From assembly GCA_001871075.1 (NCBI GenBank), contig MNUP01000075.1, positions 1-39,162 on the forward strand: 39,162 nt of DNA. Reading direction: 5' to 3'. Position 1 is the stretch's first letter, and each line of letters begins with the position of its first letter. The translations under genes were made by a program, and so were the position numbers. Source of the DNA: Candidatus Desantisbacteria bacterium CG1_02_49_89. GTDB taxonomy: Bacteria; Desantisbacteria; UBA1551. This document shows positions 6,994 to 35,822 of the stretch, one piece after another. A model generated the notes under the pieces. The model saw only the letters and a program-made list of their open reading frames with translations, was not told the origin of the DNA and did no database searches.

Positions 6994-7106
6994 CCCCCCT
7001 ACTTTCTTGCGAAAGTAACAGGGGGGACCTACACCCGCCAATATTCGTGGCGGGTTTCGGCACAGGGACCTACGCCCGCCAATAACCGTGGCGGGCTACG
7101 GTCGGG
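6994..7106 (+). repeat. Three hairpin elements downstream of queA
   Basis: The gap of about 240 nt between queA and secG holds three inverted repeats. The first (6994-7026) has CCCCCC/GGGGGG arms outside a 7-bp TACTTTC/GAAAGTA stem with a TTGC loop. Then come two tandem copies of a 40-nt unit (about 7023-7062 and 7064-7106), each starting GGGACCTAC and carrying the stem CCCGCCA/TGGCGGG (7034-7054 and 7075-7095). The same CCCGCC palindrome recurs at 12527-12548 inside leuS and, in altered form, at 20771-20793. These are dispersed palindromes, not obvious terminators, since no T run follows. Confidence 0.75.
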
Positions 7107-10554: not shown

Positions 10555-13044
10555 ATGATGGGCAGCACCGAAGAAACTGACGTCTATCCTTTTAGGCTTG
10601 CAGAAGCCAGGTGGCAGAAATACTGGGATGAACAGGGCCTTTATAATACAAAGACCGATGCTTCAAGAAAAAAGTATTATGTCCTGGAAATGTTCCCGTA
10701 TCCTTCGGCAAAACTGCATGTGGGGCATATGCGCCCTTATTCCATAACCGACGCGATAGCCAGGTTCAAGATAATGCAGGGTTATAACGTGCTGCACCCG
10801 ATCGGCTATGATTCTTTCGGTATGCCCGCTGAAATAGCCGCCGTTGAAAGAAATATCCATCCTTTCGAGTGGACCAGGAAGTGCATAGAAACCATACGCG
10901 GGCAGTTCAGGCGGCTGGGTTATTCTTACGACTGGCGCAGGGAAGTCATCACATGCGATCCCGGATATTACAGGTGGAGCCAGTATTTCTTTTTAAAAAT
11001 GTTTGAAAAGGGCCTTGCGTACAGGAAAAAATCTCCCGCAAACTGGTGCCCGAAATGCAGCACGGTCCTCGCGAACGAGCAGGTAATAGACGGCCGGTGC
11101 TGGAGATGCGGTTCTACCGTCATCCAGAACGAGCTTGAACAATGGTTTTTAAGAATAACATCTTATGCTGACAGGCTCCTTGATTTTTCAAACCTGAACG
11201 ACTGGCCCGAAAGGGTCCTGCTGATGCAGAAAAACTGGATAGGGAGAAGCGAAGGAGTCGAGATCAAATTCAGTGTCCAGTGTCCAGTGTCCAGTGTCCA
11301 GCTGAAAAATAAAGATCTAATGGTATTCACTACAAGGCCGGACACAATTTTCGGAGCAACATATGTCGTGCTTTCGGCCGGCCATCCGCTTGTCAGCGAT
11401 ATCCTTAAGATCAGCGAGAACAGTTTATTAAAGGATTTTATTGCAAGAACAGGGTCAAAGGATATAACAGTAACCACCATGATAGATATGGAAAAAGAGG
11501 GTGTTTTTACGGGTTTTTATGCTATAAATCCCGTAAATAGGGAAAAAATACCTATCTGGATAGCAAATTACGTTCTTATGGGATATGGAACCGGAGCGAT
11601 AATGGCGGTTCCCACCCATGACCAGAGAGATTTTGAGTTCGCTAAAAAATATAACCTGCCGATGAGAATTGTTATCCAGGATCCAGGATCCAGCATCCAG
11701 GATCCAGCAGAAATGAAGGAGGCTTATGAGGGCGAGGGAACGCTGGTGAATTCCGGACAGTTCAACGGTATACCGAACCTGCAGGCAATAGAAAAGATAT
11801 CGGACTGGATGGAAAAGGAAAAAATGGGCAGCAGGCAGGTCAACTACCGCCTGCGCGACTGGTGCATTTCACGCCAAAGATACTGGGGCACCCCGATACC
11901 CGTAATATATTGTAAAAAATGCGGTATGGTCCCGGTGCCTGAAAAAGATCTTCCGGTCAGGCTGCCTGAAAAGATCAATATCACGGGTAAGGGCAGTTCT
12001 CCTCTTGCCAGAGCGGAGGATTTCGTTAAATGCAGCTGCCCGAAATGCGGCGGGAGCGCGGAAAGGGAGACAGATACCATGGATACGTTTATCTGCTCAT
12101 CCTGGTATTTTTTACGCTACACCAGCGTTAATTCTGATGACGCCGCATTCCATAAAGAGGATTCGGATTACTGGATGCCGGTGGACCAGTATGTCGGCGG
12201 GGTAGAACATGCCATACTGCATCTTCTTTATTCAAGATTTTTTGTCAAATTCTTAAAAGATATCGGGGAAGTAAAGTGCGAAGAGCCTTTTGTGAACCTG
12301 CTCGCGCACGGAATGGTCGTAAAAGACGGCGCAAAAATATCAAAGTCAAAAGGCAACATTGTTGATCCGGATATTATTATCGACAGATACGGAGCCGATG
12401 TCATGCGCCTGTTCATGCTTTTTGCCGCTCCTCCTGAGCCGGACCTCGAATGGAACGATGAGGGAATAGAAGGCGCAAGCAGGTTTTTAAACAGGGTTTG
12501 GAGGCTTGTAAAGCAGTATCCAGTGTCCCGCCCAGCAAGATTGGCGGGCAAGCCCAGTATCCAGTGTCCAGCAGAAAACGACAAAAAGATACAGAGAAAA
12601 CTGCAACAGACGATAAAAAAAGTAACGGAAGACCTGGAGAGGTTTCATTTCAATACGGCGATCGCAAGCCTGATGGAAATGACTAATCTGATAGGCCAGT
12701 CTCCGTCAAAAGAAGTTCTTGAAAAAATAATCCTGCTGCTCGCGCCGTTCGTCCCGCATTTTAGCGAGGAATGCTGGGCGGTCCTTGGCAACAAACCCAG
12801 CATTTTCGGTATACCCTGGCCGGGTTACGACAAAGACGCCATCAGGGAAGAGGAATCTTTGATAATAGTCCAGGTTGACGGTAAGCTAAGGGATAGGGTG
12901 CCTGTTCCCGCAGGCGCCGTGGAGGAAGACGTAAGGAAGATCGTCCTGGCGCGTGAAAAGGTCAGCAGGTGGCTTGAAAACAGAAAGATCGCGAATATTG
13001 TATTTATCAAAGACAAGCTTCTGAACATAGTAACGTCACAATGA
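10555..13044 (+). CDS. leuS: Leucyl-tRNA synthetase
   Basis: 829 residues, full-length class I synthetase. Visible are the HIGH-type motif LHVGHMRPY, a zinc-binding CPKC...CWRCG insert, the editing (CP1) domain with FTTRPDTIFGATY and MAVPTHDQRDFEFA, and the KMSKS-type loop KISKSKGN. The start is ATG 10555 or the adjacent ATG 10558; GGGAG at 10548-10552 fits the second slightly better. Three surface stretches are encoded by short tandem repeats (11271-11301, 11674-11708, 12514-12571), giving SVQCPVSSVQ, VIQDPGSSIQDPA and YPVS...PSIQCPAE. All motifs remain, so the enzyme is probably active. Its stop overlaps plsY (ATGA). Confidence 0.96.
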   Translation: MMGSTEETDVYPFRLAEARWQKYWDEQGLYNTKTDASRKKYYVLEMFPYPSAKLHVGHMRPYSITDAIARFKIMQGYNVLHPIGYDSFGMPAEIAAVERNIHPFEWTRKCIETIRGQFRRLGYSYDWRREVITCDPGYYRWSQYFFLKMFEKGLAYRKKSPANWCPKCSTVLANEQVIDGRCWRCGSTVIQNELEQWFLRITSYADRLLDFSNLNDWPERVLLMQKNWIGRSEGVEIKFSVQCPVSSVQLKNKDLMVFTTRPDTIFGATYVVLSAGHPLVSDILKISENSLLKDFIARTGSKDITVTTMIDMEKEGVFTGFYAINPVNREKIPIWIANYVLMGYGTGAIMAVPTHDQRDFEFAKKYNLPMRIVIQDPGSSIQDPAEMKEAYEGEGTLVNSGQFNGIPNLQAIEKISDWMEKEKMGSRQVNYRLRDWCISRQRYWGTPIPVIYCKKCGMVPVPEKDLPVRLPEKINITGKGSSPLARAEDFVKCSCPKCGGSAERETDTMDTFICSSWYFLRYTSVNSDDAAFHKEDSDYWMPVDQYVGGVEHAILHLLYSRFFVKFLKDIGEVKCEEPFVNLLAHGMVVKDGAKISKSKGNIVDPDIIIDRYGADVMRLFMLFAAPPEPDLEWNDEGIEGASRFLNRVWRLVKQYPVSRPARLAGKPSIQCPAENDKKIQRKLQQTIKKVTEDLERFHFNTAIASLMEMTNLIGQSPSKEVLEKIILLLAPFVPHFSEECWAVLGNKPSIFGIPWPGYDKDAIREEESLIIVQVDGKLRDRVPVPAGAVEEDVRKIVLAREKVSRWLENRKIANIVFIKDKLLNIVTSQ
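11271..11301 (+). repeat. Heptad array CAGTGTC x4.4 inside leuS
   Basis: Four perfect tandem CAGTGTC units plus CAG. The reading frame passes through, giving SVQCPVSSVQ between strands at the start of the editing domain, just before FTTRPDT. The same heptad, in either orientation, occurs at 12514-12571, 35654-35681 and 35772-35803. Confidence 0.92.
11674..11708 (+). repeat. Heptad array ATCCAGG x5 inside leuS
   Basis: Five in-phase 7-nt units: ATCCAGG, ATCCAGG, ATCCAGC, ATCCAGG, ATCCAGC. It encodes IQDPGSSIQDPA in a loop of the editing domain between MRIV and the EGTLVNSGQFNG motif. The unit shares the core ATCCAG with the CAGTATC arrays. Confidence 0.9.
12514..12571 (+). repeat. Heptad array split by a palindrome inside leuS
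   Basis: CAGTATC CAGTGTC (12514-12527) is followed by a 27-nt element with CCCGCC/GGCGGG arms (12527-12548), then CAGTATC CAGTGTC CAG (12555-12571). The two halves of the array are identical, so the palindrome looks nested in, or duplicated with, the heptads. The frame stays open and encodes a linker before the C-terminal tRNA-binding helices. Confidence 0.88.
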
Positions 13045-16052: not shown

Positions 16053-16715
16053 ATGTTCAGCAAAAGAGACCAGATAATCCTTCTGTTCCTGATAACGGCC
16101 GTGGTTGCCGGCGTTGCCGTAATGCTCATAAGGGATTACAGGCAAGGTATTTCTTATGACGGTTCTTCCAGAGTGGAAGTTCTTTTCACAGGCAGGATCA
16201 TAAGGCCGGGCCTTTACACGGTCCAGGTCCAAGATACCTTCGGAGAGATCCTGAGATCATCAGGCGCCGCAAAGGGCCTGCGAGGAGAAATAAAGGTTGA
16301 CGCTGTTGAGCCCGGCGACCAGGCATACGCGGCTGTAAACATTAACAAGGCAACGCTCCGGGAGCTTGAATCCCTGCCAGGGATCGGCCCAAAGCTCGCG
16401 CAGGACATTATTTTATATAGAGGCAAAAACGGATTTTTTTCTGACAAGGAACAATTGATGAGAGTAAAGGGGATCGGGCCTGCCAAATTCAACAGGATAA
16501 AGGAATTCATAACGCTGAACGACGAAACAGAAGGCCCGGTGCCAAAAACCATAAGACTGCTGGTAGGGGATTCAGGCAGTGTTTTGTGCGTCAGCCCTGA
16601 CTCGGGAATGCTGGTTTTGCTTGAATGCGGGGATCTGTTTTCAAACGAGGACATGGCGTCAAGAACGCAGAAACAGGACGGAGTTCCTTTAAGGCTGAGG
16701 ATGGACGTGAGATGA
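16053..16715 (+). CDS. Membrane-anchored ComEA-like helix-hairpin-helix protein
   Basis: 220 residues from ATG 16053 (TTG 16041, overlapping the previous stop, is an alternative). One membrane helix (about 7-27) comes first. An SLBB-like segment follows (VLFTGRIIRPGLYTVQVQDTFGEIL), then the tandem HhH of ComEA: NINKATLRELESLPGIGPK and FFSDKEQLMRVKGIGPAKF. ComEA binds incoming double-stranded DNA at the membrane. A further 60 residues after the HhH domain are not part of ComEA as I know it. No comEC or comF is nearby, so a DNA-uptake role is only inferred. The stop overlaps leuC (ATGA). Confidence 0.82.
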   Translation: MFSKRDQIILLFLITAVVAGVAVMLIRDYRQGISYDGSSRVEVLFTGRIIRPGLYTVQVQDTFGEILRSSGAAKGLRGEIKVDAVEPGDQAYAAVNINKATLRELESLPGIGPKLAQDIILYRGKNGFFSDKEQLMRVKGIGPAKFNRIKEFITLNDETEGPVPKTIRLLVGDSGSVLCVSPDSGMLVLLECGDLFSNEDMASRTQKQDGVPLRLRMDVR

Positions 16716-17980
16716 ACATAACGGAGAAGATACTTTCGGCGCACTGCGGGAGAAGGAATGTAAGCCCGGGCGAATTCATAGAGGCGGATGTTGACCTTGC
16801 TCTGGGCAATGATATTACCGCGCCCCTTGCGATAATGGAGTTTAATAAACTTGGCCTGAAGCGGGTGTTTGACAGGAACAGGATCGTGCTTGTTTCCGAC
16901 CATTTCATTCCCGCCAAAGATATCAAAAGCGCAGGCCAGGCAAGGATGCTGAAGGATTTTTCGGAGAAACACGGCATAAAACGTTATTTTGAGCTTGGAA
17001 GGATGGGGGTGGAGCACGCACTCCTTCCCGAGCAGGGGTTTGTCAGTCCGGGAAACCTTATAATCGGCGCGGATTCCCATACCTGCACATACGGGGCGCT
17101 CGGGGCTTTTTCCACTGGCGTTGGCAGCACTGATCTTGCCGCGGTATTCGCAACAGGAAAGATATGGCTGAAGATCCCGGAAAGCATCAGGTTCATATAC
17201 CGGGGCAGGGCAGGGAAGTGGGTAGGCGGCAAGGACTTTATACTCTTTACGATCGCAAAAATAGGGGTTGACGGCGCGTCATACTGTGCGATGGAATTCA
17301 CAGGTGAGGCAATATCGTCTCTGGGAATGTCAGACAGGCTTGCGATGTGCAATATGGCGATTGAAGCTGGAGGGAAGAACGGGATTGTTCCGCCTGACAT
17401 GACTACTTTGAAATATCTTAACAAATTGAAAATTGTAAATTGTAAATTGAAAATTGTAAATTTAGGGAGCGATAAAGACGCAAAATATAAAAAGACAATA
17501 GAGATAGACGCGGCGAAGATAAGGCCGTTCGTGGCGTGCCCGCCGCTGCCTTCAAGAGGCAAACCCGCGGATGAGCTGGGAAAGGTAAAAATAGACCAGG
17601 CGTTCGTAGGTTCGTGCACGAACGGCAGGATAGAGGACCTGCGCCTGGCAGCATCGGTGCTTAGAGGGCGTAAGGTAAAGAGCGGAGTCCGTTTTATTGT
17701 AAGCCCTGCCACGCAGGCAATGTACCTGCAAGCCCTGAAAGAAGGCCTGCTCGAGCTTTTCACAAAAGCAGGAGGGACCGTTTGCACGCCAAGCTGCGGA
17801 CCCTGCCTTGGAGGCCACTGCGGGGTGCTGGGGGCAGGAGAGGTCTGTATTGCGACAACGAACAGGAATTTCATAGGCAGGATGGGAGACCTGAAAAGCA
17901 GCGTATACCTGGCTAACGCGGCTGTTGTCGCGGCTTCCGCGATCAAGGGCCGAATAACAAGCCCGGCAGAAATAATTTAG
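16712..17980 (+). CDS. leuC: 3-isopropylmalate dehydratase large subunit (LeuC, archaeal/HACN-type)
   Basis: 422 residues from ATG 16712, which overlaps the previous stop by 4 nt. It is an aconitase-family [4Fe-4S] dehydratase; cluster ligands are C302 (GSCTNG), C362 and C365 (SCGPC). Other family motifs are GADSHTCTYGALGAF and CIATTNRNFIGRMG. The length fits the roughly 420-residue LeuC/homoaconitase type rather than the 465-residue enterobacterial type. Residues about 238-250 (KLKIVNCKLKIVN) are encoded by a heptad repeat. Its partner leuD is 128 nt downstream. leuA and leuB are absent, so isopropylmalate is likely but not certain as substrate. Confidence 0.9.
   Translation: MNITEKILSAHCGRRNVSPGEFIEADVDLALGNDITAPLAIMEFNKLGLKRVFDRNRIVLVSDHFIPAKDIKSAGQARMLKDFSEKHGIKRYFELGRMGVEHALLPEQGFVSPGNLIIGADSHTCTYGALGAFSTGVGSTDLAAVFATGKIWLKIPESIRFIYRGRAGKWVGGKDFILFTIAKIGVDGASYCAMEFTGEAISSLGMSDRLAMCNMAIEAGGKNGIVPPDMTTLKYLNKLKIVNCKLKIVNLGSDKDAKYKKTIEIDAAKIRPFVACPPLPSRGKPADELGKVKIDQAFVGSCTNGRIEDLRLAASVLRGRKVKSGVRFIVSPATQAMYLQALKEGLLELFTKAGGTVCTPSCGPCLGGHCGVLGAGEVCIATTNRNFIGRMGDLKSSVYLANAAVVAASAIKGRITSPAEII
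17423..17463 (+). repeat. Heptad array AAATTGW x6 inside leuC
   Basis: Six in-phase 7-nt units: AAATTGA, AAATTGT, AAATTGT, AAATTGA, AAATTGT, AAATTT. It spans about 42 nt, a multiple of three, and encodes KLKIVNCKLKIVN in a likely surface loop before the FVACPP segment. AT content is far above the surrounding gene. Confidence 0.92.
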
Positions 17981-18645: not shown

Positions 18646-18718
18646 GTAATCGGGACTGCGGGAATAAAAGTCAAATTTTTACAAATTTAATATTTGCAAT
18701 TTAAAATTTGAAATTTGA
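18593..18718 (+). repeat. Repeat element overlapping leuD 3' end and running to pilD
   Basis: A 12-nt direct repeat AAAAGTCAAATT (18593-18604 and 18666-18677) flanks a 61-nt palindromic element with TCCC/GGGA and TCCCGCA/TGCGGGA stems. After the second copy come five in-phase heptads (AATTTAA, TATTTGC, AATTTAA, AATTTGA, AATTTGA; 18684-18718) that end 1 nt before the pilD ATG. The direct repeats could be a target-site duplication or just part of an older array. Confidence 0.8.
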
Positions 18719-18719
18719 A

Positions 18720-19490
18720 ATGAATATTTTGTATGGAGTGATCGTATTCGTGTTCGGGCTGACAATAGGGAGTTTCCTTAACGTCTGCATATACAGGATG
18801 CCCAGGGGAGAATCTATTGTTTCGCCCGGTTCACACTGCCCGGACTGCAATCATCCGCTGGGCGTGTGGGACCTTATACCCCTGATAAGCTTTATCGCTC
18901 TGGGCATGAAGTGCAGGTACTGTAAAAAAGAAATTTCGCCAAGATATTTTTTCGTAGAGCTGGGAACAGGGGTGATGTTTCTCGCGGTTTTCGCCAGGTT
19001 CTTCATATATGAGAATAACCCTCTGGCTTTTGTTTCGTACCTGGTGCTGTGCAGCGCCCTTATCGTTATAACTTTCATTGACCTGGAACATAAAATAATA
19101 CCTGACAAGATAACGTATCCCGGGATGATAGCAGGAATATTCATAAGCATTTTTACGCGTTCGTTCCTGCCTTCGGTGCTCGGGCTGCTGATAGGCGGGG
19201 GCATACTGCTTTTTATCGTGGTTGTATCCAGGGGAGGGATGGGCGGAGGGGACGTGAAGCTTGCCGCAATGCTGGGAGCGTTCCTGGGCTGGAAGCTTAT
19301 ATTTCTCAATCTTTTTCTTGCGTTCCTTCTGGGCGGAATAGCCGCGGTGATACTTCTTATTATGAAAAAGAAGGGCAGGAAAGATTATATACCGTTCGGC
19401 CCGTACCTTGCGATCGCGGGGATGATCACGGTTTTCTGGGGAGACCGTTTACTTTCGATCTTTTTACCATTTCTGGCGCAAACGCATTAA
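18720..19490 (+). CDS. pilD: Prepilin peptidase (type IV leader peptidase, PilD/GspO)
   Basis: 256 residues, polytopic inner-membrane aspartic protease that cleaves and N-methylates type IV pilin-like proteins. The zinc-type tetracysteine cytoplasmic loop is CPDC...CRYC. The catalytic aspartates lie in FIDLEHKIIPD and in GGMGGGDVKL. GSFLNVCIYRMPRGESIV near the N terminus is also diagnostic. I chose ATG 18720; a TTG at 18708 lies inside the heptad array. There is no Shine-Dalgarno, only the AT-rich array. No pilin genes are in the window. A DNA-uptake link with the ComEA-like protein is possible. Confidence 0.94.
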   Translation: MNILYGVIVFVFGLTIGSFLNVCIYRMPRGESIVSPGSHCPDCNHPLGVWDLIPLISFIALGMKCRYCKKEISPRYFFVELGTGVMFLAVFARFFIYENNPLAFVSYLVLCSALIVITFIDLEHKIIPDKITYPGMIAGIFISIFTRSFLPSVLGLLIGGGILLFIVVVSRGGMGGGDVKLAAMLGAFLGWKLIFLNLFLAFLLGGIAAVILLIMKKKGRKDYIPFGPYLAIAGMITVFWGDRLLSIFLPFLAQTH

Positions 19491-33526: not shown

Positions 33527-33970
33527 ATGCCAAGAAAGCTTATTATCCTGACAGTTTTCGGCGCGGCAATGGGCTGGTGGGAAGGGGTTGTCGTTGTTTA
33601 TATCAGGAAGATCCTTCAGTTAAGCATTCCTGACCTTACCCGGATGGTTATGGGGCAGGTCCCGCGCGACCTTCTTTCGATAGAAATGACAAGAGAGGCA
33701 GCCACTATAATAATGCTTGTTGCGGTTGCCCTGATGCTTGAGAAAAATTGGTGGCGCAGGCTGGCTGTGTTCTTGTGGGTGTTCGCGGTATGGGACCTGG
33801 TTTATTATGCCGCCCTCAAAGTATTAATAGGCTGGCCGCCTTCTTTTGCCACAATAGACTGCCTTTTCCTGATCCCTGCTCCATGGATCGCGCCGGTTTG
33901 GGTGCCGGTCCTTACAATGGCGGGTTTCCTTGTGTTTTCAGGCTGGTTGTTCCTTAAAATAAAAGAATAA
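33527..33970 (+). CDS. Four-helix integral membrane protein, unknown
   Basis: 147 residues with about four membrane helices (roughly 5-25, 57-73, 80-103, 118-142). Distinctive conserved-looking segments are GWWEGVVVVYIRKI near the start, an IEMTREAATI motif and AVWDLVYYAALKVLIGWPPS followed by DCLFLIPAPWIAPV. The many Trp, Pro and charged residues between helices suggest a cofactor- or lipid-binding role, but I cannot name one. It begins 2 nt after tyrS, so it is co-transcribed. A heptad repeat begins inside its stop codon. Confidence 0.78.
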   Translation: MPRKLIILTVFGAAMGWWEGVVVVYIRKILQLSIPDLTRMVMGQVPRDLLSIEMTREAATIIMLVAVALMLEKNWWRRLAVFLWVFAVWDLVYYAALKVLIGWPPSFATIDCLFLIPAPWIAPVWVPVLTMAGFLVFSGWLFLKIKE

Positions 33971-34088
33971 TTATGAATTATGAGTTATGAGTTATGAATC
34001 AACTGCAAGGGTGTTTATTGTCCCAAAGGGACCCCTTCGGGGTAACTCAGGGCTTTAGCCCTGATTCATAATTTTGCCTTTCGGGCAA
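33969..34088 (+). repeat. Heptad array plus four hairpins between tyrS unit and yicC
   Basis: Four heptads AATTATG, AATTATG, AGTTATG, AGTTATG (33969-33996) start within the upstream stop codon. Then come four small hairpins: TCCCAAAGGGA (34021), ACCCCTTCGGGGT with a UUCG loop (34031-34043), AGGGCTTTAGCCCT (34049-34062) and TTGCC/GGCAA (34074-34088). The third belongs to the GTAACTC palindrome family also seen at 18011 and 37199. The UUCG hairpin could stop transcription, but no T run follows. I see no clear promoter before yicC. Confidence 0.8.
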
Positions 34089-34148: not shown

Positions 34149-35021
34149 ATGCTTCAGAGTATGACAGGTTACGGGTATTGCAGGACAGGCAAAGAGGGGG
34201 TTTCGTTTTTCATAGAAATAAAATCCCTGAATTCAAAATTTCTTGACATATTCCTGAAGCTGCCGGAAGGAATGACGTTCCTTGAGGACAGGATAAAAGA
34301 GGTTATCCAGCAGAAGTTTGACAGGGGGCGGATAAGCCTTTCGATCATCGAAGAGCAGTACAGCGGTAAGGTCCTGTCGGTAGACATAGCGCAGGCAAGG
34401 AAGTATCATAATGCCTTTAAAAAGCTTAAGGAGAAACTTGATATTTCAGGAGAGATCGATATCGGATTATTCCGTGACATTCCGCATATTTTCAGGACGG
34501 GAAAAGAAGGATATTCGCTGTCCGTAATATGGCCGGCGCTCAAAAAAGGCATTGAAAAAGCAGTACTCATGCTCGAAGTTTCAAGGAACAAAGAGGGCAG
34601 GAAAATACAGCGCGCGCTCGCAAAACACGCCGCGGGTATTTCGGCGGCAGTCCTGAAAATAGAGGAGCACGCGCCCGAGGCCGTAAAATTCCACAAGGAG
34701 AAGCTCGAGCATACCCTGAAAGAATTTCTGCCCGAGCTTAACCTGAACAGCCCCAGGCTTGTGGAAGAGCTGACCCTGTTCGCAAGCCGGGTGGACATAA
34801 GCGAGGAGATGATGCGCCTTAAGGCGCACCTGCAGTCCTTCCTTGGCACCCTGGAACTTTCCGGGTCTGTCGGCAGGCGGCTTGATTTTATCGCCCAGGA
34901 AATGTCAAGGGAGATAAACACGCTTTCTTCAAAAGCCAACAGCTACGCTGTTTCGTCGCAGTCGGTCCTGGTAAAAGAAGAACTGGAAAAGATAAGGGAA
35001 CAGGTGCAGAATGTCGAATAA
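34149..35021 (+). CDS. YicC family endoribonuclease
   Basis: 290 residues, full length. The family signature MLQSMTGYGYCRTGKEG opens the protein. IEIKSLNSKFLDIFLKLP follows, and the C-terminal DUF1732 part has the conserved GRRLDFIAQEMSREINTLSSKA. YicC of E. coli has been reported to be an RNase acting on the small RNA RyhB. yicC-gmk-rpoZ is a widely conserved order. AAGGAG lies 5 nt before the ATG. The whole gap to gmk is a heptad repeat. Confidence 0.94.
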   Translation: MLQSMTGYGYCRTGKEGVSFFIEIKSLNSKFLDIFLKLPEGMTFLEDRIKEVIQQKFDRGRISLSIIEEQYSGKVLSVDIAQARKYHNAFKKLKEKLDISGEIDIGLFRDIPHIFRTGKEGYSLSVIWPALKKGIEKAVLMLEVSRNKEGRKIQRALAKHAAGISAAVLKIEEHAPEAVKFHKEKLEHTLKEFLPELNLNSPRLVEELTLFASRVDISEEMMRLKAHLQSFLGTLELSGSVGRRLDFIAQEMSREINTLSSKANSYAVSSQSVLVKEELEKIREQVQNVE

Positions 35022-35063
35022 TTTTAAATTTAAAATTTTAAATTTTCAATTTGCAATTTAAAA
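35022..35063 (+). repeat. Perfect-phase heptad array filling the yicC-gmk gap
   Basis: Six 7-nt units TTTTAAA, TTTAAAA, TTTTAAA, TTTTCAA, TTTGCAA, TTTAAAA run from the base after the yicC stop to the A of the gmk ATG, with no other sequence between the genes. There is no Shine-Dalgarno. It is the same length in units (six) as the array inside leuC. Confidence 0.93.
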
Positions 35064-35771: not shown

Positions 35772-35803
35772 ACTGGATACTTGACACTGGTCACTGGACA
35801 CTG
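35772..35803 (+). repeat. Heptad array before rpoZ
   Basis: In-phase units ACTGGAT, ACTTGAC, ACTGGTC, ACTGGAC and ACTG; the reverse-strand form of CAGTGTC/CAGTATC in leuS. It ends 7 nt before the rpoZ Shine-Dalgarno. Confidence 0.88.
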
Positions 35804-35822
35804 TATTTAAAAGGAGGGTAAT

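Follow-up and report, generated by a model that had tools for sequence, protein, structure and literature searches.

Three heptad arrays in an essential gene

How do short tandem repeats come to lie three times within the reading frame of leuS, an essential gene, and what do they mean for its product? The question is raised by a 39,162-nt stretch of Candidatus Desantisbacteria bacterium CG1_02_49_89 (hereafter the window), which is contig 29 of a 2.48-Mb genome available as a draft in 150 contigs (93.5% complete). An earlier interpretation made from the letters alone (the sequence-only reading) held that three repeat arrays inside leuS are read through and that the catalytic and editing motifs of the enzyme are intact. 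Both TRF and the sequence itself place the arrays where that reading had them, and a single open frame does run through all three (Table 1). LeuS is 71% identical to its orthologue in the nearest relative (G001, of the same order), matches LeuRS structures in the PDB down to E 8.6e-256, and retains the HVGH, KISKS, TTRPDT, and HDQRD motifs. An AlphaFold2 model (mean pLDDT 86) likewise finds LeuRS structures as its best PDB matches (TM-scores 0.85–0.89, by query length), such that motifs and predicted overall fold identify the product as a leucyl-tRNA synthetase.

All three arrays follow a common plan, (CAGNRTC)x4+CAG, of 31 nt, which a hairpin element interrupts exactly halfway in array 3 to give a composite of 58 nt. 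They translate as SVQCPVSSVQ, IQDPGSSIQDPA, and YPVSRPARLAGKPSIQCPA, all within the one open frame. Arrays 1 and 2 are free of palindromes, array 3 holds a 22-nt palindrome (CCCGCC...GGCGGG, 12527–12548), and array 1 lies in a hairpin of the CP1 editing domain, directly before FTTRPDT.

Table 1. Coordinates of leuS and of the repeat features of the window (an empty strand cell: strand not given).
Feature	Position	Strand	Remarks
leuS, leucyl-tRNA synthetase	10555..13044	+	829 aa, intact frame; ORF list
Array 1, (CAGTGTC)x4+CAG, 31 nt	11271..11301	+	Residues 240-249; TRF CAGTGTC x4.4
Array 2, CAGGATC CAGGATC CAGCATC CAGGATC CAG, 31 nt	11677..11707	+	Residues 375-385; TRF ATCCAGG x4.9, extent 11674-11707
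Array 3, left half, CAGTATC CAGTGTC	12514..12527	+	
27-nt hairpin element CCGCCCAGCAAGATTGGCGGGCAAGCC	12528..12554	+	Midpoint of array 3
Array 3, right half, CAGTATC CAGTGTC CAG	12555..12571	+	Composite 58 nt, residues 654-673
AAATTG(T/A) heptad array in leuC-like gene (16625-17980)	17423..17462	+	Read as KLKIVNCKLKIVN
AAATTTG-type heptad array	18683..18721		
AATTATG/AGTTATG heptad array, 29 nt	33969..33997		Intergenic
AATTTTA-type heptad array	35020..35059		Between two genes
CAG-family member CTGGATA CTTGACA CTGGTCA CTGGACA CTG, 31 nt	35773..35803	-	Intergenic; TRF ACTGGAC x4.6

The leuS sites in a relative and in the predicted fold

G001 was the sole relative used for presence and absence, and with one relative the differences reported here cannot be polarised; LeuS relatives in GTDB contigs, tried as a means of dating the arrays, proved useless because the best full-length matches fall below 50% identity. 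At none of the three leuS sites does the DNA of G001 carry heptads. The sequence-only reading had predicted three added peptide segments, absent from relatives, in surface loops and with lengths in multiples of three, and this prediction fared unevenly. All three segments do lie in loops of the predicted fold, and the net length differences are all whole codons, as an intact frame requires. Site 1 is longer as foreseen, by 9 residues than in G001 and by ~7 than the usual LeuRS loop, and is modelled as a coil (243–253) in the turn between strands 231–242 and 254–259. Site 3 exceeds G001 by 10 residues and is long against G001 only, its total loop length being that of many other bacteria; in the model it is a coil between helices 635–653 and 673–695, with pLDDT <50 for 658–671, and the segment is predicted to be disordered. 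The claim fails at site 2. The loop there has 2 residues fewer than its G001 counterpart and exceeds the usual LeuRS length by 1, a similar loop (VIERPGEPLPEP) aligns in Thermus LeuRS, and the model gives a coil (376–383) at pLDDT ~90. By sequence comparison, site 2 appears to be a loop that was replaced or overwritten, not an addition.

A dispersed class of arrays with a near-fixed number of cores

The leuS arrays are not a product of chance, since CCAGNNTCCAGNNTCCAG has 42 matches in the genome and its reversed control pattern has none. Degenerate tandem units of seven bases are dispersed here in many copies: a 492-kb sample (41 stretches of this genome) holds 84 arrays of period 7, along with 2 of period 6, 20 of period 8, and 19 of period 9. 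Period-7 lengths peak at 29–31 nt (47 of 84 arrays), a peak that partly depends on the detection threshold, and period-9 arrays peak at 39 nt (4x9+3). Both peaks fit four pitches plus about three bases, i.e., five cores, so that core count rather than length is constant across the two periods. Exact CAG cores number three, four, and five in 5, 9, and 13 of the 27 CAG-type arrays, respectively, and six or more in none; when one mismatch per core is allowed, three arrays reach six. Under a constant chance of extension, the probability that 0 of the 13 five-core arrays would have extended further is ~8e-8.

The usual explanation for simple repeats is slippage, and slippage favours no particular length. 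The main rival to a dispersed origin is growth in place, in which slippage would start from a chance duplication of seven bases and shared unit types would reflect a mutational preference; we judge it rather improbable, on evidence that points both ways. The variability of copy number expected of slippage is not seen, and the narrow length distribution, with its ceiling of five exact cores, argues against free slippage, as does the constancy of core count over periods 7 and 9. Growth in place is also hard to square with the small number of unit families (the 84 arrays comprise 35 unit types, the largest a family of 11, where random heptads would give ~81 types and no family of more than 2) and with identical 31-mers, found at three places in the sample. 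Yet units within one array are more alike than units of different arrays, as copying in place would produce, which counts against dispersal. The array at site 2, moreover, starts on a conserved V-I-Q, whose codons (..ATC CAG..) could have served as a seed, and in many bacteria the most frequent long simple repeats have heptanucleotide units, for which slippage of ~7 nt has been proposed (Mrazek 2007, as relayed in PMC4679880 and PMC4692102).

CCAG arrays are patchy in other genomes: of 290, 19 have them, and they are numerous in G108, G190, and G244. The arrays of G244 and G108 are also short (mostly 27–31 nt), while G190 has long CCAG arrays (42–118 nt), its CCAGTAT and AAAGTAAC arrays of 42–127 nt (L217, L218) being much longer than those of the present genome; the CCAG unit can thus also expand, in favour of growth in place. 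G001 shows one exact period-7 run in 158 kb, and a search of it for a CCAG array found none. Since arrays of this class abound here but are all but missing from G001, they most likely spread after the two lineages parted, to judge from this sequence comparison.

That the arrays are an assembly artefact of a metagenome bin is scarcely credible: the draft state of the genome is a reason to ask, but the arrays (31–58 nt) fit within a read, the frame is kept in leuS and in several other genes, and the array classes occur on dozens of contigs.

Two further patterns were observed among the intergenic arrays. TTTAAA often stands directly or a few bases after intergenic CAG arrays (L048, L053, L107, L109, L113, L114, and window 35773–35811). 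Arrays of the AATTATG type occur as inverted pairs 36–45 nt apart, like the arms of a ~100-nt MITE (L093:19576–19678, L104:15348–15449, L127:444–544, and L134:14937–15034).

A hairpin element at a fixed phase within the arrays

The hairpin of array 3 is itself a dispersed repeat. CCCGCC..GGCGGG palindromes occur at 170 sites in the genome vs. 25 for the control, and the hairpin core of the leuS family has ~46 genome copies (two mismatches allowed) vs. 0 for its control; in 279 other genomes no copy of the core was found (one mismatch allowed). The hairpin is inserted precisely into heptads, as seen in these core copies and in five clear cases: removal of 27 nt from the sequence restores a continuous array of 31–32 nt at L175, L179, L180 (leuS), L191, and L201, where the left part of the array measures 14–17 nt. 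Continuity upon excision holds for 11 of 30 hairpin copies vs. 15 of 600 random positions. The phase is fixed as well, with 20 of 30 copies directly after “TC”; the preceding words are GTAG or CGTC in some copies and other ..TC words in most, and the host arrays include CAGTRTC, AAGTRTC, GTGCGTC, GCGTATC, and 8-base types. Often the hairpin sits exactly between units 2 and 3, as at leuS site 3 and in an MBL-fold hydrolase gene. Slippage leaves such a midpoint hairpin unexplained, which again tells against growth in place.

Two candidate connections were rejected. In one, insertion of the hairpin would have duplicated a 14- or 17-nt target and so created the arrays, in an ABAB layout; site 3 fits this layout and most arrays do not. 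An association of the REP/RAYT kind fails in that Y1 transposase (Y1_Tnp) genes exist, at 10 loci in the genome, but are unlinked to the palindrome, none of which was found near these loci up to ~1.5 kb on each side. Separately, the window carries two tandem CCCGCC..GGCGGG palindromes between genes (7034–7095), near ctac/gtag tags as in GTAG-type REPs.

Arrays in other coding genes

Arrays lie mostly outside genes. Predicted genes cover 80% of the sample yet hold 22 of its 84 arrays, a density ~11-fold lower in coding DNA, where the figure is approximate because genes were called by a simple codon-score script. Those within genes occur in leuS (3), valS, aspS, carB, leuC, an xer-type recombinase gene, a glutamate-synthase-like gene, an AIRS-domain (thiL-like) gene with two arrays, a radical-SAM UPF0004 gene, and an rnfC-like gene. 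The proposal that arrays enter housekeeping coding DNA and seem tolerated there is thus borne out beyond leuS.

Relative to G001, which lacks arrays in these four genes, the products differ in length by +25 aa (valS), +29 (xer), +7 (carB), and -8 (aspS). valS and xer thereby depart from G001 by 25–29 aa at once, together with a dispersed hairpin or a second array, contrary to growth in place. The valS-like gene (L179, C19) carries a 58-nt composite that adds ~25 residues just before TTRPET, a site that corresponds to leuS site 1. In the leuC-like gene the array falls in a LeuC loop where the G001 gene (L240) has a different insertion encoded by tandem repeats, CGGRVYSAGLCGGRVYSAGL.

Position within genes is also skewed, with 9 of 22 coding arrays falling within 45 codons of the start, where 13% would be expected (P 0.001), and many of these encode the hydrophobic part of apparent signal peptides, e.g., MKKILLLIFYFQLSAFSFQLCRAE. 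Heptad arrays were likewise noted in the hydrophobic core of apparent signal peptides of several secreted or envelope proteins (L099:2966–2995, L099:4928–4952, and L099:9279–9310), with further cases at L093:16021–16051, L105:7986–8015, L123:5544–5574, and L138:873–901. A comparison of open and closed frames in coding arrays (Fisher P 0.009) was discarded as circular: only an open array can lie inside an open frame.

Could the added peptides have been selected for a changed LeuRS function, e.g., in editing or tRNA contact? Two of the three leuS arrays lie in the CP1 editing domain, and leuS holds 3 of 27 CAG arrays where ~0.03 would be expected per gene of such size, an excess noticed after the fact. 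The same arrays, however, turn up in genes unrelated to leuS and in signal peptides, and most are intergenic; the site 3 segment is predicted to be disordered, and the site 2 loop is of normal length; we therefore hold selection to be very unlikely. What is seen in leuS is an instance of a genome-wide process, and the gene is not a special target.

Origin of the arrays

The reading that we prefer, if by a modest degree of confidence, is that leuS holds three copies of a short dispersed repeat of fixed plan, that the hairpin was inserted later, and that the arrays are tolerated passengers. The repeat would consist of a core of at least 3 bases at a 7-base pitch (8 or 9 in sister families), mostly with five cores over ~31 nt, and we infer that it was copied in trans rather than grown in place. 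It would land anywhere, often replacing some native bases, and selection would purge most coding DNA of it. Copies in genes would survive in permissive loops or signal peptides, provided that the net length change is a multiple of three and that the repeat is open in that phase. The hairpin, a second repeat of 27 nt that resembles REP or SDR elements, would then insert after “..TC” within arrays. The peptides so encoded would be carried as passengers, presumably neutral for LeuRS. Against dispersal, beside the likeness of units within arrays, it counts that neither site 2 nor aspS has gained length on balance, and their loops may have been overwritten or may have grown in place. We also found no enzyme, target duplication, or guide able to move a 31-nt array.

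How the copying would proceed is a more tentative matter. A breaks-and-patches route, in which gene conversion or templated repair fills a break with an array copy from elsewhere at the cost of some native bases, would be a special case of copying in trans that needs no dedicated mobile element. It would suit identical arrays at several places and the variable native loss (leuS site 2 and aspS have become shorter on balance, leuS site 1 and valS longer), but no shared flanking homology between arrays was seen except the frequent TTTAAA beside intergenic CAG arrays, and we consider this route unlikely. Bolder, and possible though doubtful, is the suggestion that five-core arrays are a tiny mobile or templated DNA unit, whose machinery would count or copy cores at a pitch of 7, 8, or 9 bases, with the hairpin landing at the midpoint and the unit spreading even into essential genes.

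Under dispersal by copying in trans, the near-fixed core number at several pitches and the midpoint hairpin call for an undescribed mechanism of copying or recognition, which would be testable in close relatives or in a cultured host with similar arrays. The coding copies, for their part, offer a natural insertion map of permissive loops in LeuRS, ValRS, AspRS, CarB, and LeuC.

Comparison with known repeat systems

Heptamer repeats are common and mostly intergenic. They include the short tandemly repeated repetitive (STRR) heptamers of heterocystous cyanobacteria, as well as heptanucleotide repeats in Xanthomonas, Nostoc, and Beggiatoaceae (PMC4692102; PMC4679880). Shared with these sets are dispersed short arrays of 7-base units, located mainly between genes and patchy across phyla. 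Whereas copy number varies in the published sets and most of their arrays are intergenic, those described here keep to a narrow length of about four units and a core, come in many unit types within one genome, have sister families at 8- and 9-base pitch, and are found in many copies within housekeeping genes.

In Nostoc punctiforme, Elhai and colleagues reportedly described in 2008 hairpin-forming small dispersed repeats (SDRs) of 21–27 nt that often lie within heptameric repeats. The ~27-nt hairpin found here precisely inside heptad arrays is likened to them by description, and differs in its phylum, in its fixed phase (after TC), in its frequent place at the midpoint of a 31-nt array, and in occurring also inside genes. 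Precise insertion of SDR5 within HIP1 has also been documented (PMC4390886).

REPs tagged with GTAG or CGTC and Rickettsia palindromic elements lie in frame in housekeeping genes, including those of tRNA synthetases, and intragenic ones sometimes occur twice in one gene (PMC3733652; PMC10969869). Like them, the arrays described here are short dispersed repeats carried in frame by housekeeping genes, including those of tRNA synthetases. Those elements are palindromes, whereas leuS arrays 1 and 2 are not; no REP-type transposase gene was found next to the palindrome up to ~1.5 kb on each side of the Y1 loci, and in place of the ~100–150 bp in-frame palindrome of the Rickettsia elements there are 31-nt arrays without a palindrome and a composite of 58 nt. 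Our literature search found no account of heptad arrays of fixed length. What seems new is the near-fixed core number over several pitches together with the midpoint hairpin, and the presence of palindrome-free heptad arrays inside several essential genes of one genome.
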